From NCBI GenBank assembly GCA_951828515.1, contig OX639992.1:4628217-4692216 (forward strand): 64,000 bases of DNA. The letters are read 5' to 3'. The position numbers and the translations under genes are program-made. The stretch's first letter is position 1. Every line of letters starts with the position of its first letter. This document shows positions 1 through 26,821 of the stretch, in pieces. The notes below the pieces were generated by a model that did no database searches, was not told the origin of the DNA, and saw nothing but the letters and a program-made list of their open reading frames with translations. The stretch comes from an uncultured Poribacteria bacterium (lineage in GTDB: Bacteria > Poribacteria > WGA-4E > WGA-3G).

Positions 1-368
1 ACTACATCCCCAACTTTAACAAAGGGCGGTTCGTCAGGGGCAGGAGAACGGTAGAAGCGCGAGGGCATAGGGGCACTGATAAGCCCATTATTGCCTTCCG
101 AGGCACCTTCGACATCCGGGGTCTCTACAGGAAGTTGTGGCGCACCCACTGCTACACTCGTTTCTGCAGGGCGTAGTGCGGGCTGTTCATATCCTTCGGG
201 GTTCCCGCGATCCCTGGACACCTGCACTTCAAACTCGTTATCTCGGATGCGAACTTCTGAAAGATCGGTACGGACAAGAATTTCCGCTAACTGTTCAACA
301 ATCTCCAAGACATCACTGTAGCTTTGTTCCGCAGATTGGGATTTATCCTTGGATCTGTTTTGACGCAT
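1..368 (-). CDS. accB: Biotin carboxyl carrier protein of acetyl-CoA carboxylase (5' part, runs off left edge)
   Basis: Reading the minus strand from an ATG at 368 gives 122 codons without a stop before the window edge. The first ~50 residues match the AccB N-terminal pattern (a helix VLEIVEQLAEILVRTDL followed by EVRIRDNEFEVQV). After a Pro/Ala/Glu-rich linker comes SAPMPSRFYRSPAPDEPPF and VKVGD, the start of the biotinyl domain. The biotinylated Lys lies beyond the edge. AccB carries the carboxyl group between biotin carboxylase and carboxyltransferase in malonyl-CoA synthesis, in the cytosol. It lies directly downstream of efp on the same strand, a common bacterial order (efp-accB-accC), so accC is expected next. 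The start is preceded only by an A-rich stretch, so the SD is weak. Confidence 0.88.
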   Translation of the reverse strand, partial: MRQNRSKDKSQSAEQSYSDVLEIVEQLAEILVRTDLSEVRIRDNEFEVQVSRDRGNPEGYEQPALRPAETSVAVGAPQLPVETPDVEGASEGNNGLISAPMPSRFYRSPAPDEPPFVKVGDV

Positions 369-17857: not shown

Positions 17858-20236
17858 ATGGTCAAAGAAATAGAGATTTTAACTGCCGATGACACCGAGT
17901 TGATGTGTATCAGCCGAGAAGGGACGTTGTCTTTGAGTCTGAACGAGATGCAAACAATTCAGACCCACTTCGGAACCCTTGGACGCAACCCCACCGATGT
18001 AGAGATAGAGACCATCGCCCAAACTTGGTCTGAGCATTGCGTTCACAAAACATTCAAAAGCACTATCCTCTATTCCGAAGACGGAAAAGAACCAGAGCAG
18101 ATTGACGGTTTGTTTCCAAGTTTCATTCAGCGTGCGACTGAGGAGATAGCGAAACCGTGGTGTGTCTCTGTCTTTTCAGACAACGCCGGTATCATCGAAT
18201 TTGACGAGCAATTCAATCTCGTTTTCAAAGTAGAAACGCACAATCATCCGTCAGCGATCGAACCCTATGGGGGTGCGGGGACTGGGATAGGCGGCGTAAT
18301 TCGCGACGCACTCGGTACAGGGCTTGGTGCGAAGCCAATTCTTAATACGGACGTATTCTGTTTTGGGCTGCCAGATACGCCTTATGCGCAACTGCCGAAA
18401 GGCACACTTCACCCGAAGCGCGTATTTAAAGGAGTGGTCGCGGGGGTGCGCGATTATGGCAACCGAATGGGAATCCCTACGGCGAACGGTGCTATCCTTT
18501 TTGATGCCCGTTATACCGCAAACCCACTCGTCTTCTGTGGAAACGTCGGTTTAATACCGAGAAACAGATGTGAGAAATCCGTCGAACCGGGTGATCTGGT
18601 GGTTGCGATCGGTGGACAAACCGGCCGCGATGGAATCCACGGCGCGACCTTCTCCTCTGCAGAATTGGACGATACCTCTGAATCCCTCGGTAGCGTGGTG
18701 CAGATCGGCAACCCAATTATGGAAAAGAAGATTGTGGATGCACTCCTGCAGGCACGGGATCGGAATCTTTATCGCTCAATAACCGATTGTGGTGCCGGAG
18801 GGTTCTCGTCTGCCGTCGGAGAGATGGGAGAAGATATAGGGGCAGAAGTGCACCTCGAACGTGTCTCTCTGAAGTATGAAGGGCTCGCACCATGGGAAAT
18901 CTGGCTCTCGGAAGCACAGGAGCGCATGGTCATCGCTGTGCCACCTGAGAATTTAGATGAACTCATGGAAATATGCGAGGCAGAAGTCGTTGAAGCCACA
19001 GTCCTCGGAACTTTCACAGATACGCGTAGGTTACAGGTTTTCTACGAAGGCACAGTGGTCGCCGACTTAGAGATGGAATTTCTGCACCATGGACTGCCGA
19101 TGCCTGTGAAAGAGGCGGTTTGGGAGCCGCCGAAGCACCCAGATATGGCATCGCGAGATGAAGAAACGGTCAATTATACCAATGACCTCGAACGCCTTCT
19201 CGCAAGTCCAAACATTGCGAGCAAAGAATCCGTTATCCGGCAATACGATCACGGTGTACAAGGCGGTATGGTTATCAACCCGCTTGTCGGTGTGGAAAAC
19301 GATGGACCGAGCGATGCGTGCGTCACGACTCCCGTCTTAGGTAGTCGAACAGGTGTAATCGTTGCGAACGGCATCAATCCGAAATATAGCGACGTGGATC
19401 CGTATCTCAGCGCAGCAGCAGCGATTGACGAGGCTTTACGGAATATCGTCGCTGTCGGAGGGACATTAGAAAAGACTGCGTTACTGGACAATTTCTGTTG
19501 GGGAAATCCTGACAAACCCGATCGGCTCGGTGAACTCGTCCGTGCAGCGAGAGCGTGTTATGACATCGCGACTGCTTATGGCACGCCTTTTATTTCCGGT
19601 AAAGATAGCCTCTACAACGAATATCGGGACACTACAACAGGTGAACAACGCGCGATTCCATCAACACTCCTCATATCCGCTATCTGCGTTATGCCCGATA
19701 TTCAAAACGCCGTTACAATGGACGTGAAAATGCCAGGCAATCTCATTTATGTCGTCGGCAATACCTACGCTGAATTAGGTGGTTCGCACTACTTCAACAT
19801 CCACGGGTTCGTCGGAAACACTGCCCCTGCCATTCGTCCAAGTGAAGGGAAATTGACGATGGAACGTCTCAGTACTGCCATCAACAGTGGATTGGTGCGC
19901 TCGTGTCACGACTGTTCTGAAGGCGGTATCGGTGTAGCGGCAGCTGAAATGGCGTTTTCCGGTGGGTACGGGATGTCTCTGCGTCTTGACGATATTCCTA
20001 CAGGTGAAGAGATCGATGCTGATGATTTCCTTCTGTTTTCGGAATCGAATAGCCGCTTTCTCGTAGAGATTGAACCGCAACACCAACATGCCTACGAAAG
20101 CCACATGGCGGGAATACCGCTTGGCTGTCTCGGCACCGTTTCAGACACCTCCGAATTTGTTATCAAAGGAAAGACTGGACGCTTGATAATTGAAACGTCA
20201 ATTGATATTCTAAAATCCGCATGGCAGGTTTTTTGA
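17858..20236 (+). CDS. purL: Phosphoribosylformylglycinamidine synthase subunit II (FGAM synthase)
   Basis: 792 aa from the ATG at 17858. The frame is open further upstream to 17762, but that part translates the leader repeat. It is the small PurL type, using ammonia from PurQ to convert FGAR to FGAM with ATP (step 4 of purine synthesis). Motifs seen: TWSEHCVHKTFKS (active-site His), VETHNHPSAIEPYGGAGTG (Mg/ATP loop), TDCGAGGFSSAVGEMG, FISGKDSLYNEY and CHDCSEGGIGVAAAEMAF. It is slightly longer than Bacillus-type PurL (about 740). purQ follows 230 bases downstream. purS, the usual third subunit, is not visible between or beside them. Confidence 0.95.
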   Translation: MVKEIEILTADDTELMCISREGTLSLSLNEMQTIQTHFGTLGRNPTDVEIETIAQTWSEHCVHKTFKSTILYSEDGKEPEQIDGLFPSFIQRATEEIAKPWCVSVFSDNAGIIEFDEQFNLVFKVETHNHPSAIEPYGGAGTGIGGVIRDALGTGLGAKPILNTDVFCFGLPDTPYAQLPKGTLHPKRVFKGVVAGVRDYGNRMGIPTANGAILFDARYTANPLVFCGNVGLIPRNRCEKSVEPGDLVVAIGGQTGRDGIHGATFSSAELDDTSESLGSVVQIGNPIMEKKIVDALLQARDRNLYRSITDCGAGGFSSAVGEMGEDIGAEVHLERVSLKYEGLAPWEIWLSEAQERMVIAVPPENLDELMEICEAEVVEATVLGTFTDTRRLQVFYEGTVVADLEMEFLHHGLPMPVKEAVWEPPKHPDMASRDEETVNYTNDLERLLASPNIASKESVIRQYDHGVQGGMVINPLVGVENDGPSDACVTTPVLGSRTGVIVANGINPKYSDVDPYLSAAAAIDEALRNIVAVGGTLEKTALLDNFCWGNPDKPDRLGELVRAARACYDIATAYGTPFISGKDSLYNEYRDTTTGEQRAIPSTLLISAICVMPDIQNAVTMDVKMPGNLIYVVGNTYAELGGSHYFNIHGFVGNTAPAIRPSEGKLTMERLSTAINSGLVRSCHDCSEGGIGVAAAEMAFSGGYGMSLRLDDIPTGEEIDADDFLLFSESNSRFLVEIEPQHQHAYESHMAGIPLGCLGTVSDTSEFVIKGKTGRLIIETSIDILKSAWQVF

Positions 20237-20296
20237 GTATTCGCAAGGCGTTAAATCAGACGATTGGTTTATTGACCGTTTTTTCTGATATTTGAA

Positions 20297-20317
20297 GAAA
20301 CACCCCAGCAAAAACCC
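20297..20317 (+). repeat. Leader motif in the purL-purQ gap
   Basis: GAAACACCCCAGCAAAAACC, on the sense strand of purQ, followed by a GCCGTTGTTGCAGGCTA segment. This segment is also present (inverted context) in the bioB leader at 48064-48080. Confidence 0.45.
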
Positions 20318-20373
20318 TGCGCCGTTGTTGCAGGCTATCGTCTTCGGTTACAGGCGTTAAGGATGAAACCAAA

Positions 20374-20466
20374 AACCGTAGCTCGTAACGAAGTGGAGAG
20401 CGGATTTAAGGAAGGAACCTCAAAGTTTCAAATCCACGTCGTTTCTCCGCAAGGAAAATTAAAAAG
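20374..20466 (+). promoter_or_regulatory. Leader repeat copy L4, upstream of purQ
   Basis: AACCGTAGCTCGTAACGAAG, then TGGAGAGCGGATTTAAGG (arms GCTC...GAGC), the conserved middle (CTCAAAGTTTCAAATCCACG), and CTCCGCAAGGAAAATTAAAA before the purQ ATG. It is about 75% like L2, with AAGGA as the SD. Confidence 0.65.
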
Positions 20467-21252
20467 ATGAGACCAAAGACACTCATTTTACGAACGGCAG
20501 GCACGAACTGCGATGCAGAAACGGATATGGCGTTCCAACTCGCTGGCGCAGAGACAGCCTTAGTCCATATCCAACACCTCATATCAGACAAAGTTAATCT
20601 TGCTGATTACCAAATCCTCGCGATCCCCGGTGGATTCTCCTACGGCGATGACATTGCCGCGGGTATCCTGTTGGCGATAGAGATGAAACACAAACTGACA
20701 GACGCGCTGAATCGATTTGTCGAAGATGGAAAATTAATAATCGGCATCTGCAACGGGTTTCAAGTACTTGTGCGGACGGGCTTGTTGCCCGGGAAAGACA
20801 CCTCAGAAATGGCGCAGCAAGCGACATTAGCGATGAATACCTCATCAAAATTCGAGTGTCGGTGGGTGGATTTGGAAACACAAGAAAGTCCATGTGTCTT
20901 TACAAAAGGGGTCAAAGCGCGTGTCTATCTTCCCGTTGCGCACGCTGAAGGTCGATTTACTGCACCAGCGAATGTGCTGTCGGAATTAGAAGCGAACAAT
21001 CAAGTCGTATTTCGGTATGCCGAGAGTAGATACCCCAACAACCCGAACGGTTCCGATAGTAATATTGCGGGTATCTGCGATGCAACGGGCAAAATTTTCG
21101 GATTAATGCCCCATCCAGAACGGTTTCTGACAAAATGGAATCATCCCCGTTGGACACGGGTTGCTAAAACTCAAGAGACCCCTTCTGAAGAAGGCGACGG
21201 ATTGGTTATCTTCAAAAATGCCGTTGATTACGTCAAATCGAATCTTCTGTAG
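20467..21252 (+). CDS. purQ: Phosphoribosylformylglycinamidine synthase, glutaminase subunit
   Basis: 261 aa, a class-I glutamine amidotransferase that hydrolyses glutamine and passes ammonia to PurL. The nucleophile Cys is in LIIGICNGFQVLVRTGLLPG. The oxyanion/GG block is LAIPGGFSYGDDIAAG. The catalytic His-Glu are in LMPHPERFL. The N-terminus KTLILRTAGTNCDAETDMAF is the normal PurQ start. It follows purL on the same strand with its own leader copy (L4) providing the SD. Complex formation normally also needs PurS, which must be encoded elsewhere if present. It is cytosolic. Confidence 0.95.
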   Translation: MRPKTLILRTAGTNCDAETDMAFQLAGAETALVHIQHLISDKVNLADYQILAIPGGFSYGDDIAAGILLAIEMKHKLTDALNRFVEDGKLIIGICNGFQVLVRTGLLPGKDTSEMAQQATLAMNTSSKFECRWVDLETQESPCVFTKGVKARVYLPVAHAEGRFTAPANVLSELEANNQVVFRYAESRYPNNPNGSDSNIAGICDATGKIFGLMPHPERFLTKWNHPRWTRVAKTQETPSEEGDGLVIFKNAVDYVKSNLL

Positions 21253-21381
21253 GAGTGGACTGTGACCGTGGCTCTCATCTTTATCCACTTTTTCTCTCAT
21301 AATCTCCAGGGAACTCCCCTATTAGGCGTGAACCCGTTTTTGACATCCGGAAAAACGGAGCGAAATCCCAATAATTAAAAA

Positions 21382-21816
21382 ATGTCAAACAAGTTATCAA
21401 GACGCCTACTTCCATTCTATATGAAATTGCCTGTCTTTTGGGCATTCATCGTTCTCTCGGTGTTGGGACAACTGCTTTGGGTAGTTGTCATTTCACAGGA
21501 CGTACGGATTGACCTCCGATGGTCGAGTTTCGGCTACGGTTTAGGGATCGGTTTGGGTTTCATGCAAGGAAAGTGGACATCTCGTTTGTGGGATCAATCG
21601 TATCTACAGGTTTTAAAGCGGCAGATAACCTTCTGGGAAGCAAAAGGTGCGAAGTTGCTGACTTTTTACACCTGTGCGGCACTCGGTCTACCCATCCTTT
21701 GCACGATCCTCCTTCGATCGCTTGACACGTTGGTAGGCATTCAATCCTATGTTTTCGGCTTTATTGGTGCGATGAATGTGGCGTTGCTGTTATGGGTGCG
21801 ACGCATGCCGAAGTGA
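21382..21816 (+). CDS. Small integral membrane protein of unknown function
   Basis: 144 aa with about four hydrophobic segments: near 14-38 (LPVFWAFIVLSVLGQLLWVV), 47-62 (glycine-rich, GYGLGIGLGFMQG), 91-110, and 118-138. The ends are basic (NKLSRRLL at the start, WVRRMPK at the end). I do not recognise a family. The upstream gap ends in AATAATTAAAAAATG, like the tail of the leader repeat family, but the rest of the leader is not recognisable. It lies between purQ and the helicase gene on the same strand. There is no hint of substrate. Confidence 0.6.
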   Translation: MSNKLSRRLLPFYMKLPVFWAFIVLSVLGQLLWVVVISQDVRIDLRWSSFGYGLGIGLGFMQGKWTSRLWDQSYLQVLKRQITFWEAKGAKLLTFYTCAALGLPILCTILLRSLDTLVGIQSYVFGFIGAMNVALLLWVRRMPK

Positions 21817-21908
21817 ATTTAGCGAGAGAAATCCTTGCGGATAGAAAAGATATCCGAATAGCCATACGCCATCCAAACGATAAAATATATCTGGCATCAT
21901 AAACAACC

Positions 21909-23684
21909 ATGAGACTTGATAGAAACCAAGAAAAAGCCGTAAACCACATTACAGGTCCCGCTATCGTCATCGCAGGACCCGGCAGTGGTAAAACAACAGT
22001 CGTAACCGCACGGATTCTAAACCTTATCCAGACGCACAACATCCCACCCTCACAAATCCTCGCTATTGCCTTTAATAGAAAAGCCGTTGAAGAGATGGAA
22101 ACGCGCATTTTGAGCAGCTTGCAAACCAAGTCTTCCTTAACAAAAGTGCGTGAACTCACCTCATCAAAATCTAATAATGCGGCTGAAACGGACACAAAGC
22201 CCGAAATCCGGACACTTCATGCTTTCGGTAAAGACATTATCACTGAAAACTATAAACGCGCAGGATTTAATCAAGAACCTGATATCTGGACGGGTCAGAT
22301 AGATGAAATCATCGCACAAGAACAGACGCAGATTGAACGGGAAGTCTCCACCACCTCAGTCGCCATCTATAAAATAGAAAGCAAAAAGACAGGGAAATGC
22401 TATATCGGACAGACGACAAATCCTGATCGGAGGCGAAAGGAACACTTCGACCACTCGTCAAATGACAGACTCCGACAAGCGATCCGATCCGAAGGAGCAC
22501 CCCAATTCAGTTTTGAGGTGCTTGAACGCGTTTCTGGACGGGAGGCAAATCGTCGCGAAGCACACTGGATTGCATTTTACAGTAAGCGAGCAAGTGTGTT
22601 TAATCGTGCCGATCCGTTGCGGGTGCAGTATAGCAACCAGCTCATCCTCGAAATGTTCTGTCAGCATTTTGAGATTCCATACAAAGAACATCTCGACAGA
22701 GATCCCGATTTTGAGAACCTCCGCGACCGCTTCAACGACATAAAAGAAATTGTCATGCGAGCAAAACGGCAGGTCACTACAGGACTATTCGACCCAACGA
22801 CACTTGATGACCCTGTAGCGCAAGCATTTGCCGTAAAATATGAAACGCTCAAAACCGAGGCAAACGCTATTGATTTCGAGGATATGGTTATCCACGCCGC
22901 GAACCTGCTTAAAACGTGTCCGGATCTTCAGCAAACTTACCGTGCCAAATACCCGTATCTGCTCGTTGATGAATTCCAAGACATTGCCCCAGCCGACTTC
23001 CGACTGATTTCACTTTTGTCGGAGAACCTCTTTGCTGTCGGCGACGACGATCAAGCCATTTACGGATTTCGTGGTGGCGATTCCGAAATTATGCAGGAAT
23101 TTACCGCTCGTCAGGATGTGGTAAAATATGAAATCACACGGAACTATCGCTCCACGTCAACGATTGTTGAACACGCAAGAGCCTTGATTGAGCGAAACGA
23201 GCCGCGAATCAGCAAAAACCTTCGTGCCCACAACCCAATCCAGCAGGACATCAAAATCGTAGAGACAACGCCTGAGACTGTAGAAGCCATCCTACGCCGT
23301 GAATTGAAATCGTCTCAGGAAACCGCTGTTTTGGCGCGCACCAACTACGAAACCGATCAGATTCAAGAGATGCTTTCCAAGCACGAGATCCCTGTTGAAG
23401 TAACGACGATCCATAAAGCCAAAGGTAGGGAATGGGAAAAGGTTATCCTCATTCATAACACATTGGAGCGGCGTTTCCCGCGGCGTGATAATAACCTTGC
23501 AGAGGAACGTCGGGTCTTCTATGTTGCGATGACGCGTGCCAAGGTGGAGTTAGTGGTGCTTGGTGGGACGTGTCCGTTCGTGCCAGAATTTGAGAAAATT
23601 TCCAAAAACGTCGGTTACTATCTGCGGCAGTTTGCGTATTGGCGTGCGAGAGGGAAACTGAAAAAAGTGGGAGATGTAAAATAG
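21909..23684 (+). CDS. UvrD/Rep-type superfamily I helicase with an inserted GIY-YIG nuclease domain
   Basis: 591 aa. Helicase motifs in order: Q-like LDRNQEKAV, Walker A GPGSGKTT (23-30), Ia AIAFNRKAVEEM, TLHAFGKDI (Ib), II LLVDEFQD (351-358), III VGDDDQAIYGFRGGD, IV TRNYRST, V TTIHKAKGREWEKV, VI RRVFYVAMTRAK. Between Ib and II (about 150-234) sits a full GIY-YIG domain: VAIYKI, CYIGQTTNPDRRRKEHF, Glu217 in REAHWIAFY and the FN Asn near 232, so the catalytic set looks intact. The 2B subdomain of UvrD is absent (only about 85 residues between motifs IV and V). It probably unwinds and nicks DNA. This arrangement is unusual; the role could be repair, defence or mobile-element related. Confidence 0.88.
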   Translation: MRLDRNQEKAVNHITGPAIVIAGPGSGKTTVVTARILNLIQTHNIPPSQILAIAFNRKAVEEMETRILSSLQTKSSLTKVRELTSSKSNNAAETDTKPEIRTLHAFGKDIITENYKRAGFNQEPDIWTGQIDEIIAQEQTQIEREVSTTSVAIYKIESKKTGKCYIGQTTNPDRRRKEHFDHSSNDRLRQAIRSEGAPQFSFEVLERVSGREANRREAHWIAFYSKRASVFNRADPLRVQYSNQLILEMFCQHFEIPYKEHLDRDPDFENLRDRFNDIKEIVMRAKRQVTTGLFDPTTLDDPVAQAFAVKYETLKTEANAIDFEDMVIHAANLLKTCPDLQQTYRAKYPYLLVDEFQDIAPADFRLISLLSENLFAVGDDDQAIYGFRGGDSEIMQEFTARQDVVKYEITRNYRSTSTIVEHARALIERNEPRISKNLRAHNPIQQDIKIVETTPETVEAILRRELKSSQETAVLARTNYETDQIQEMLSKHEIPVEVTTIHKAKGREWEKVILIHNTLERRFPRRDNNLAEERRVFYVAMTRAKVELVVLGGTCPFVPEFEKISKNVGYYLRQFAYWRARGKLKKVGDVK

Positions 23685-23690
23685 GAATTA

Positions 23691-23699
23691 TGCTATAAT
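23691..23699 (+). promoter_or_regulatory. Extended -10 promoter for the DUF6785-type gene
   Basis: TGCTATAAT gives a TG-n-TATAAT extended -10 (TATAAT at 23694-23699), about 50 bases before the ATG at 23747. There is no good -35, as is usual for extended -10 promoters. Confidence 0.45.
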
Positions 23700-23746
23700 C
23701 ATCGATAATAAATCGCTCTATTACACACCTTAAGTCCAGTCCATTT

Positions 23747-25672
23747 ATGGCAAACGCAACACAAAAAAATCAAAATCCCCATCCCGGCGTAACGGTTCGC
23801 GCCATCATACTCGGTTTGCTCCTGATTCCAGTGAATACCTACTTCATCATGGCAAACCACCTCAAATTCTGGAGCACCCTACCGACGACGATGTCACTCA
23901 TCTATAACGTGATTATCACGTTGATGGTGCTTATTCCGTTCAACCTTCTGTTGAATCGGTTCCTACCTCGGTTCGCTTTGAGACAGGGGGAACTCCTGAC
24001 AGTCTTTGTGATGCTGTCGCTCTCCTCAGCGATTGCAGGGCACGATATGATGCAAACTGTTATCCCGACGATATCCGATGCGTTCTGGTTCGCAACCCCA
24101 GAAAATGAGTGGAAACAACTGTTTTGGCGGTATCTCCCTCCGTGGCTGACATCTAACGATATGGCAAGCTTGCAGGCATTCTACGACGGAGAGAGTACTA
24201 TTTACAGAATGGTGCATCTGCGGGGGTGGCTACGTCCGATTCTCTGGTGGACTATCTTTCTAACTGTCCTCATCTGGGTGATGATCTGCTTGGACGTTTT
24301 TCTCAGAAAACAGTGGATCGAGCATGAACGATTGACATATCCCATCGTGCAATTGCCGTTGGAAATGACAAGGCTCGACGGACGACTTTTCCGATCGCCG
24401 ATGATGTGGCTTGGGTTTTCGATCGCAGGCGGTATCAACCTAATCAATGGTCTGCATGTACTCTTTCCAGAGATCCCTGAAATCCCGGTACGGCATGCCG
24501 AACTCGGTCAATACTTCACACAGAAACCGTGGAGTTCGATGGGGTGGACACCGGTTTATGTCCGCTCGTTCGCTGTTGGACTCGCTTATCTGATGCCCCT
24601 TGAAATGTCATTTTCAATTTGGTTTTTTTATTGGTTCTGGAAAGCACAACGGATACTCGGTAGCGCGCTGGGTCTTGACGTTATGCCGGGGTTTCCTTAC
24701 GACTGGCAACAAGTCATGGGAGGGTATCTTGTGCTGGCATGTCTCGCAATTTGGGGCGGACGACGCTACTTTCTTAGGATTCTCAAGTATATCTTTCGGT
24801 GGCGGAAGGCACCAGGCAATATCGACGACAGTAGAGAACCGATACGCTATCGCTGGGCGGCAATTGGGTTAGTGTGCGGCTTGTTTTTCCTATTCGCTTT
24901 TTCACGACAAGGTGGGATGGAATTCTGGACAATCGGGCTTTACTTTTTAATCTATTACCTGTTAGCAATGAGTCTGACGCGTATCCGTGCTGAAGTCGGA
25001 CCCCCGACGATACGGACTTATGCGACACCTCACGATATTCTCACAGATGTTTTTGGGACCCGATTGATTTCGCACGGTAGTTTAACGATGATGCGTCTCT
25101 ATCTAACCTTCAATCGTGGATCGCGCGCCCATCCAATGCCGCATACACTTGAGGGTTTCAAACTCGCAGAGGAAACAGGCATGCGCTCCGGCAGACTCAT
25201 TGTAGCGATGATGTTCGCCGCGGTAATCGGGATTCTGGCATCGTTTTGGGCATATCTCGTCGTTGGATACAACATCGGTGTTGTCAGTGACCTCGGCACA
25301 GGGGGGTATAATCTTTTACAAAGTTGGATCTATCATCCAGTTGACACCGACGTTCCCGCCGTGATTTTCATAGGCATCGGCGCACTTTTTACCGGCTTCT
25401 TCTGGTGGCTACGAACGCTGTTTCCGTTCTGGCCCTTCCATCCTGCTGGTTATATGGTCGCTGGCGAAAAATCAACGATCGGTCGGCTGTGGTTTTCGAT
25501 ACTTATCAGTTGGAGTATCAAAACAATCTTACTGAAAGTAGGTGGGATTCGCCTTTATCGCAAAGCGTATCCACTCTTTTTAGGACTCATACTCGGCGAA
25601 TTCATGGTAGGTGGCGTATGGGTACTGATTCGACTTGTTACAGGAATGCCGATGTATTCATTTTATAGATAG
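23747..25672 (+). CDS. DUF6785/DUF6784-type multi-spanning membrane protein (paralogue 1)
   Basis: 641 aa with about 14 hydrophobic segments throughout and no signal cleavage site. Family landmarks shared with the paralogues at 36786 and 50676 are FWFATPENEWKQLFWRYLP, the LRKQWIEHERLTYPIVQLP block after the fourth or fifth helix, and a C-terminal PFHPAGYMVAGE then KTILLKVGGIRLYRKAYPLF. I place it in the DUF6785/DUF6784 group, which I associate with Poribacteria and Planctomycetes-like genomes. The general shape resembles oligopeptide-transporter-like permeases, but no transport substrate can be read. It is followed by an oxidoreductase and a lactonase-like gene, compatible with uptake plus metabolism of one compound. 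Confidence 0.7.
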   Translation: MANATQKNQNPHPGVTVRAIILGLLLIPVNTYFIMANHLKFWSTLPTTMSLIYNVIITLMVLIPFNLLLNRFLPRFALRQGELLTVFVMLSLSSAIAGHDMMQTVIPTISDAFWFATPENEWKQLFWRYLPPWLTSNDMASLQAFYDGESTIYRMVHLRGWLRPILWWTIFLTVLIWVMICLDVFLRKQWIEHERLTYPIVQLPLEMTRLDGRLFRSPMMWLGFSIAGGINLINGLHVLFPEIPEIPVRHAELGQYFTQKPWSSMGWTPVYVRSFAVGLAYLMPLEMSFSIWFFYWFWKAQRILGSALGLDVMPGFPYDWQQVMGGYLVLACLAIWGGRRYFLRILKYIFRWRKAPGNIDDSREPIRYRWAAIGLVCGLFFLFAFSRQGGMEFWTIGLYFLIYYLLAMSLTRIRAEVGPPTIRTYATPHDILTDVFGTRLISHGSLTMMRLYLTFNRGSRAHPMPHTLEGFKLAEETGMRSGRLIVAMMFAAVIGILASFWAYLVVGYNIGVVSDLGTGGYNLLQSWIYHPVDTDVPAVIFIGIGALFTGFFWWLRTLFPFWPFHPAGYMVAGEKSTIGRLWFSILISWSIKTILLKVGGIRLYRKAYPLFLGLILGEFMVGGVWVLIRLVTGMPMYSFYR

Positions 25673-25795
25673 CGGTCAGCAATCAGCAATCGGCTGTCAG
25701 CAGTCAGAAAGAGTTTTCTTGTGGCAGAGAAAAGGATATCAACTACCACACGAGTTACTGATGGCTGAAAGCCAAGAGCCAACAGCTAAAAAAAG
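25668..25795. repeat. Heptamer-built inverted-repeat element between the membrane protein and oxidoreductase genes
   Basis: The left arm starts right at the stop codon (TAGATAGCGGTCAGCAATCA, then GCAATCGGC). The right arm (about 25757-25789) is the inverse type, ACTGATGGCTGAAAGCCAAG then AGCCAACAGCT. It is the same architecture as the elements at 379-496, 1061-1211 and 2572-2693. Confidence 0.6.
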
Positions 25796-25804
25796 GAGAA
25801 AAAA

Positions 25805-26821
25805 ATGAAAGTAGTCGTCCTGTCCTATAGTCACCACGGACGCAGTATGGCACGCACGGCGCATGGGCTCGGACACGAGATTGTAGGGGTCATGGATGCC
25901 GAAGCGGAACCTCGCCAACAGTTGTCAGACGATTTTCAATGTCCCGGATATGAGACAGCAGCGGCATGTCTTGACGCAAGCAAACCCGATGCGGCACTCG
26001 TCGCCGGAAAACACATTGAGATGCCAGATCATGTGCAGGCATGCGTAGACCGGCGTATCCCCTACCTCTTGGACAAACCGTTCGCGGATTGTGCGGATCG
26101 GTTGCGTCCAGCCGCTGAGGCATCTGAAAAGCACGGCGTTTTCAGCGCGCTTGTTCTACCGAATCGTGCGAGTCGAATTGTAAGTGTTGTGAAAGAGATG
26201 GTCGCTGATGGTAGTCTCGGAGACCTCGTCCTATACAGCAGCAGGTTGAACAATGGACCCCCATCCCGTTACGATCCGACCCCTTCGGCTTGGCATAGCG
26301 ATCCGAGTATATCCGGTGGCGGTTGTTGGGCAGTTGAAGCGGCACACGGTATAGATACATTCCTTCAATTTGTCGGCGATCGGGAAATTAGTGTCGTTGG
26401 TGCAGTCATGTCCAATTCCATGCACAGCCGTGGTGTAGAGGACAGTGGTGTCGGTGTCCTACGAACAGGAGACGGTATTACGGGCATAATTGAATCGGGT
26501 TATAACTATCCATCGGGGACGCGCGGTGGCGATCATTTCTTTAGATTCATTGGAACGAAGGCATCCGTATTTGAACAGTACGGTCGTAACGGCGAACCTC
26601 TGATTGAAGTACACACAACCGAAGGCGTAGAATTCAGTGAAGACCTCTCACATGGTGCAAGGATTCAAGGCGTGATGGGTGCTGCATTTGATGCCATTCG
26701 CGACGGCGGCACTTTCGAGCCGACAGTTGTAGACGCTGTGCGTATCCTTGAAATCCAAGATGCCGTCTACGCACATGCCCGCCAGGGAGTCATCACCCAC
26801 GGTCCGCACCCGATGGGTTGA
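25805..26821 (+). CDS. Gfo/Idh/MocA family oxidoreductase
   Basis: 338 aa. The N-terminal Rossmann domain (VVVLSYSHHGRSMARTAHGL) is degenerate in the glycine-rich loop. The conserved EKP-type motif appears as YLLDKPFADC, with the catalytic-type Lys. A C-terminal alpha/beta substrate domain contains GGGCWAVEAAHGIDTF, with a His typical of the active site (H near 180). These enzymes use NAD(P) on sugars, inositols or related polyols. It is cytosolic. The SD AAAAAAGGAGAAAAA precedes the ATG. Its neighbours, a lactonase-like SMP-30 downstream and a permease-like protein upstream, suggest a sugar-type oxidation route. Confidence 0.85.
   Translation: MKVVVLSYSHHGRSMARTAHGLGHEIVGVMDAEAEPRQQLSDDFQCPGYETAAACLDASKPDAALVAGKHIEMPDHVQACVDRRIPYLLDKPFADCADRLRPAAEASEKHGVFSALVLPNRASRIVSVVKEMVADGSLGDLVLYSSRLNNGPPSRYDPTPSAWHSDPSISGGGCWAVEAAHGIDTFLQFVGDREISVVGAVMSNSMHSRGVEDSGVGVLRTGDGITGIIESGYNYPSGTRGGDHFFRFIGTKASVFEQYGRNGEPLIEVHTTEGVEFSEDLSHGARIQGVMGAAFDAIRDGGTFEPTVVDAVRILEIQDAVYAHARQGVITHGPHPMG

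Follow-up and report, generated by a model that had tools for sequence, protein, structure and literature searches.

The 64,000 bp window, a stretch of contig OX639992.1 from an uncultured Poribacteria bacterium, contains a gene for a 591 amino acid UvrD/PcrA-type SF1A helicase that carries a GIY-YIG nuclease domain inside its subdomain 1B and has no subdomain 2B (Table 1). The nuclease domain is closely similar to that of the phage homing endonuclease I-TevI, and we consider it moderately probable that the protein is a domesticated, single-polypeptide helicase-nuclease in which an I-TevI-type domain has become fixed in 1B of a 2B-less motor.

Table 1. Features of the helicase-nuclease gene and its neighbours (window positions; paralog loci are given as locus:positions)
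Feature	Residues	Position	Strand	Remarks
purQ		20467..21252	+	locus anchor; GATase_5, E 7e-83
144 amino acid protein		21382..21816	+	directly upstream of the helicase gene; sequence hydrophobic, without a Pfam family
UvrD-type helicase with internal GIY-YIG domain	591 in all	21909..23684	+	ATG 21909, stop 23682-23684
Motif I (Walker A), GPGSGKT	23-29	21975..21995	+	identical in 39/39 family sequences
Motif Ib, RTLHAF	101-106			
N-terminal remnant of subdomain 1B	113-149	22245..22355	+	model; dN/dS partition
I-TevI-like GIY-YIG nuclease domain	150-234	22356..22610	+	Pfam, PHROG 314, 1ln0 fold, active-site residues
C-terminal part of subdomain 1B	235-312	22611..22844	+	
Motif II (Walker B), DEFQD	354-358	22968..22982	+	
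Motif III, VGDDDQAIYGF	377-387	23037..23069	+	
Would-be site of 2B (as in PcrA/UvrD/Rep)	488-497	23370..23399	+	2B absent
Motif V, TTIHKAKG	499-506	23403..23426	+	
Motif VI, RRVFYVAMTRAK	534-545	23508..23543	+	
DUF6785/DUF6784 protein		23747..25672	+	downstream neighbour
Tandem paralogs		L068:8461-13554; L038:7743-11483; L059:7796-11827; L066:9519-12896; L045:8909-12796; L052:8237-10852; L047:8288-10714		

A UvrD-type helicase with a nuclease in subdomain 1B

The protein has a complete set of helicase motifs (I, Ia, Ib, II, III, IV, V and VI), all of which are near-invariant across 39 family sequences. Pfam scans of the 591 amino acid sequence give a UvrD-helicase match to residues 4–400 (E 7.9e-60), a UvrD_C match to residues 496–550 and a GIY-YIG match to residues 152–224 (E 9.5e-9; bit score 35.9, cut-off 22.6). 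The top NCBIfam helicase is PcrA (E 3e-63, under the equivalog cut-off), and the insert's NCBIfam match is "group I intron endonuclease" (E 1e-11, also under its cut-off). The GIY-YIG domain lies within 1B, between motifs Ib and II, with remnants of 1B on both sides. From the block of motifs I, Ia and Ib to the motif II block there are 202 residues, where most other UvrD-like proteins in the collection have about 65–110, and motif V follows the motif IV-side block with 0 residues in between, where UvrD-like proteins that show a 2B have about 70–200; these spacings indicate that a nuclease has been added in 1B and that 2B is missing. The initial annotation, which had placed a GIY-YIG domain with its catalytic residues at about residues 150–234, between motifs Ib and II of a helicase without 2B, was thus correct on all of these points. 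A chance or assembly artefact is ruled out by the presence of the full-length architecture in more than 50 family genomes, single-contig assemblies included.

The AlphaFold2 model of the whole protein (40 family sequences) has a mean pLDDT of 80.8 and a pTM of 0.68, the latter an only moderate global confidence, and contains no DNA. The insert is one of the most confidently predicted regions, with pLDDT values of about 89–96 in ten-residue blocks of residues 151–230, and helix 130–148 runs directly into the first strand (150–158) of the nuclease. The whole model matches PcrA, UvrD and Rep with Z scores of 25–28 (2pjr, 4c30, 1uaa, 2is4) and HelD with a Z score of 15.6; I-TevI is not among the best matches listed in this whole-protein search, and the insert was therefore modelled separately. 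By itself the insert (pLDDT 84.5) matches the I-TevI structure 1ln0 with a Z score of 12.4 and an rmsd of 1.8 Å over 83 of 92 residues, and other folds are well behind (PD-T4-3, Z 7.5; UvrC, 6.7; Slx1, 5.5). The poribacterial protein therefore resembles UvrD, PcrA and Rep in its helicase motifs and in the fold of 1A, 2A and part of 1B, but differs from them in its 1B nuclease (their nucleases are separate proteins) and in its lack of 2B; with 1B interrupted and 2B absent it does not have the four-subdomain layout (1A, 1B, 2A, 2B), and it is a relative rather than a canonical member of that group.

Alignment with I-TevI pairs its Y6, Y17, G19, R27, H31, E75 and N90 with Y154, Y165, G167, R175, H179, E217 and N232, respectively, and this full active-site set is present in 32/32 orthologs examined. 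The domain is thus an I-TevI-like GIY-YIG domain by its GIY...YIG motifs, its catalytic Tyr, Arg, Glu and Asn, and its catalytic-domain fold. Median dN/dS values were obtained by Nei-Gojobori with saturated pairs excluded and are rough, as dS is high: the GIY-YIG part has 0.116, and the helicase parts have 0.11 (N-terminal 1A), 0.075 (C-terminal 1B) and 0.086 (motifs II–VI). The GIY-YIG part is under purifying selection, with a constraint about the same as that on the motor, and both the helicase and the nuclease active sites are kept intact by selection.

Origin and distribution of the composite gene

The insert matches PHROG 314 (E 7e-17) and PHROG 7168 (E 8e-16), both of which are homing endonuclease families, and its closest phage match (38.5% identity) is to annotated homing endonucleases of Enterococcus phages. 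Free-standing relatives of the insert are also present in some Poribacteria. Apart from the composite, the GIY-YIG proteins of the window's genome are UvrC and one that is UvrC/Cho-like, and the 591 amino acid protein does not have the UvrC-type N-terminal GIY-YIG domain plus remaining UvrC or Cho parts that would place it with them. Because the nearest relatives found for the insert are phage homing endonucleases, and I-TevI has the nearest fold, the homing endonuclease capture proposed in the initial annotation is well supported as its origin. The domain shares its fold, seven active-site residues and sequence kinship with I-TevI and the phage GIY-YIG homing endonucleases of these two PHROGs, but it differs from them in having no DNA-binding tail of its own (Pfam found no NUMOD or other homing endonuclease DNA-binding tail in the protein), in being embedded in a helicase and in not being mobile in our data.

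An intein-like spliced insert, which had been raised initially as a possibility, was rejected: no intein domain was found in the 591 amino acid protein by Pfam and NCBIfam scans to E 1 (there is no Hint domain), the sequence has no splice residues (Cys/Ser start, His-Asn end) at the insert edges, and the GIY-YIG domain alone accounts for the 85 amino acid insert. A group I or group II intron was likewise rejected, with no Rfam match at the gathering score within positions 20000–26000. No insert-free allele of the helicase was found in 85 Poribacteria genomes, and two of these genomes, G061 and G081, miss the whole gene. With neither intron or intein coding nor a set of insert-plus and insert-minus alleles, the insert does not qualify as a mobile homing endonuclease, and its present-day mobility is disfavoured.

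The GIY-YIG domain is found in this helicase setting in 54 of the 59 genomes of the window's sponge-associated Candidatus Poribacteria family (85 Poribacteria were scanned), and the full-length gene is in none of the 26 Poribacteria genomes outside that family. Among the five family genomes counted as being without it, G033 has a 5' helicase fragment at a contig end, the assembly of G049 has no purQ and the G052 contig stops at purQ. In G061 and G081, which belong to the same genus, purQ and the 144 amino acid protein gene are present (loci L141 and L142, respectively) with no trace of the helicase downstream, and we read their state as a probable loss of the gene; since it is missing from at least these two genomes, the helicase gene is not essential. 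The 144 amino acid protein gene is the last of a purL-purQ-144 aa row; it is conserved, and adjoins purQ across much of the order. This row occurs without the helicase in other families of the same order, so it is older than the helicase gene, which follows it in most family loci with upstream flank available. The same site after an older row suggests one gain of the helicase-nuclease gene and vertical descent thereafter.

Searches for the same architecture elsewhere returned nothing comparable. A scan of genome contigs returned the composite from Poribacteria alone, no match in phage or plasmid records extended over 80% of the protein, and the composite ORF was absent from 160 viral-contig loci (the best 80 of 194 and the best 80 of 338 confirmed loci in two scans) and from the other non-poribacterial loci then compared; one composite scan relied on strict patterns. 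No match spanning nuclease and helicase was among those listed for 345 genomes of one phylum, and no nuclease-in-helicase match was found in 299 genomes (a scan without a positive control) or in sets of 296 and 395 genomes (overlapping, and seemingly of one phylum); this sample of other phyla is about 1,000 genomes in all, a size compatible with rare occurrences elsewhere. The composite thus appears to be confined to one Candidatus Poribacteria family in the data searched, and it did not turn out to be the widespread, already described architecture that the initial annotation had allowed for.

Two observations were made in passing. Two large rumen phage contigs (L199:104-1189 and L219:107-1222) encode a compact (~360 amino acid) UvrD-like helicase in which 1B and 2B seem to be largely missing, and about 1.3 kb further downstream lies a separate gene for a coiled-coil GIY-YIG protein; these were rejected as an intermediate, being two separate genes that are not close to the poribacterial protein. 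The species label of the metagenome-assembled genome that includes locus L074 (JAMPHR010000003.1, labelled Paenibacillus sp.) looks wrong, because that genome, G086, is in the same phylum sample as G087 (Paludibacteraceae).

RecB, AddA and AdnAB also combine an SF1A motor and a nuclease in a single polypeptide. In those enzymes the nuclease is a PD-(D/E)XK domain of the RecB type at the C-terminus, whereas the poribacterial protein has a GIY-YIG domain in 1B, no 2B and no partner subunit that we could find. A 2006 survey of the GIY-YIG superfamily includes none in UvrD, its closest cases being Tlr8p and one HsdR protein (PMC1564403). Tlr8p, of the Tetrahymena Tlr elements, similarly has an SF1 helicase and an I-TevI-like GIY-YIG domain in one protein, but there the latter is C-terminal to the helicase and the element is a eukaryotic mobile one (PMC1564403). 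The Methylococcus HsdR protein MCA0838 has a GIY-YIG domain inserted within a motor-nuclease protein, but it is a type I restriction subunit and the domain is Slx1-like; that insertion was judged to be recent and possibly non-functional because a close homologue is without it (PMC1564403). The portions of the further open-access literature that we saw contain no description of a UvrD protein with a GIY-YIG domain inside 1B, and within that compass we found no description of a helicase-nuclease with this layout, helicase-nucleases as such being known.

Tandem paralogs

In twelve family genomes (two of them known from short or contig-end fragments only) a second, diverged copy, about 44–60% identical, directly follows the helicase gene; in some relatives it lies between that gene and the DUF6785/DUF6784 gene. 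Seven paralogs separate from the orthologs in the tree (midpoint root, some long branches), so the simplest reading is that a duplication preceded the radiation and was followed by losses. The paralogs carry one or two GIY-YIG domains, two being present in five of those examined. The first GIY-YIG domain of the two-domain paralogs has the Arg and Glu; the second (L068:9352-9657, also in L052, L059, L066 and L045) is without both and keeps the motif tyrosine region, so these proteins are predicted to have an active plus an inactive GIY-YIG domain in a single chain. A GrpE-like domain is present in four of six scanned paralogs and S1 RNA-binding domains in three of the six (four stretches in two, two in the third). 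The L068 paralog (a two-contig assembly) has both kinds in a single 1698-codon open frame, and the L052 paralog ORF stops ahead of any GrpE-like or S1 domain. A segment of about 110 amino acids, RTPERLNQ...EQSRKMPEP (L324, from L068), has no Pfam match and is exclusive to the paralogs, in 7 of the 85 Poribacteria genomes.

Proposed function and alternatives

In UvrD-type helicases 1B adjoins the incoming duplex, and targeting of the I-TevI catalytic domain depends on a tethered DNA-binding part. We propose that the catalytic domain of a phage-type homing endonuclease became fixed in 1B in the ancestor of the family, and that the protein would now work as follows. The 1A/2A motor would bind single-stranded DNA and translocate 3' to 5' on ATP, as UvrD, Rep and PcrA do, and the absence of 2B would remove an autoinhibitory subdomain. 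The nuclease, on 1B beside the duplex entry point, would, in a metal-dependent manner, cut one strand at or close to the single-strand/double-strand junction in forks, flaps or intermediates of recombination, and the motor would supply loading and targeting in place of I-TevI's separate DNA-binding tail. This assignment of targeting to the motor and of junction cutting to the 1B nuclease comes from the anatomy of the protein; the nuclease is placed at the junction by analogy, given a DNA-free model of moderate global confidence, and we infer the polarity, unwinding, cutting and substrate from domain placement and conservation. The combination of unwinding and cutting in a single chain that the initial annotation put forward is plausible. 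The cellular role is most likely in DNA repair or fork maintenance, by analogy with the UvrD family. In Rep, 2B inhibits unwinding by the monomer and its removal activates unwinding, and 2B-less Rep does not replace Rep in vivo (PMC12820531). No unwinding was detected for GajB, which is UvrD-like with a non-standard 2B (PMC10681800), so the 591 amino acid protein may be just a translocase or a DNA-end sensor.

The GIY-YIG domain might instead be an accessory DNA-binding or regulatory module in a 2B-like role, with nuclease chemistry weak or absent. The missing 2B does create a structural vacancy, and the second GIY-YIG domain of the tandem paralogs has been retained despite its lost Arg and Glu; however, if the domain were for binding only, loss of R175 or E217 would be expected, as in those second copies, and every active-site residue is invariant in the 32 single-copy orthologs, so we think this unlikely. 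Helicase and nuclease are a frequent pairing in defence, and the protein could be an anti-phage or anti-plasmid effector that destroys foreign DNA in the manner of Gabija GajB or other helicase-nuclease systems: its nearest PADLOC helicase profiles are GajB (E 3e-66), GajB too is compact, UvrD-like and without a standard 2B, and the paralog copies come and go. The GajB matches are, however, explained by general UvrD similarity, and GajB has no internal nuclease, its nuclease being GajA. The genes adjacent to the poribacterial gene are those for PurQ, the 144 amino acid protein and the DUF6785 protein, and the neighbours checked include neither gajA (OLD/TOPRIM) nor any other known defence gene. 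Defence genes are typically patchy and mobile, whereas this gene is a fixed purine-synthesis neighbour in nearly all family genomes, and a defence role is in our view distinctly unlikely. We give still less credence to a processing enzyme for RNA-linked or transcription-replication conflict structures (R-loops, stalled RNA polymerase), to which the S1 domains (up to four) and GrpE-like domain of some tandem paralogs and the match of the model to HelD, a UvrD family protein that acts on RNA polymerase, might point; the window's own protein has neither S1 nor GrpE-like domains, and the known GIY-YIG enzymes are DNA cutters. That the insert is a still-selfish element whose nuclease cuts insert-less alleles and spreads by gene conversion is highly improbable, for in spite of its homing endonuclease type and its free-standing poribacterial relatives it occupies a single fixed site under selection equal to that on its host protein, and it has none of the tail, intein domain, catalogued intron or insert-free allele sought above.

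We thus prefer the domesticated helicase-nuclease. A broader proposal, which we offer only tentatively, is that the protein represents an undescribed class of helicase-nuclease, in which a homing endonuclease catalytic domain on 1B cuts DNA at the junction that the 2B-less, uninhibited SF1A motor opens, and that its paralogs, with their active/inactive GIY-YIG pair and their GrpE-like and S1 domains, act where transcription or translation meets DNA. If the domesticated helicase-nuclease reading is true, the protein would clearly exemplify how the nuclease of a selfish element can be domesticated as a module within a DNA motor, and it would provide a natural parallel to the engineered 2B-deleted Rep. 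It is a compact (591 amino acid) candidate single-chain helicase-nuclease whose two sites could be inactivated separately, and it could be used to ask how the position of a nuclease on 1B directs the cutting of forks and flaps. For the Poribacteria, an uncultured lineage, it may point to an unstudied DNA-processing pathway.
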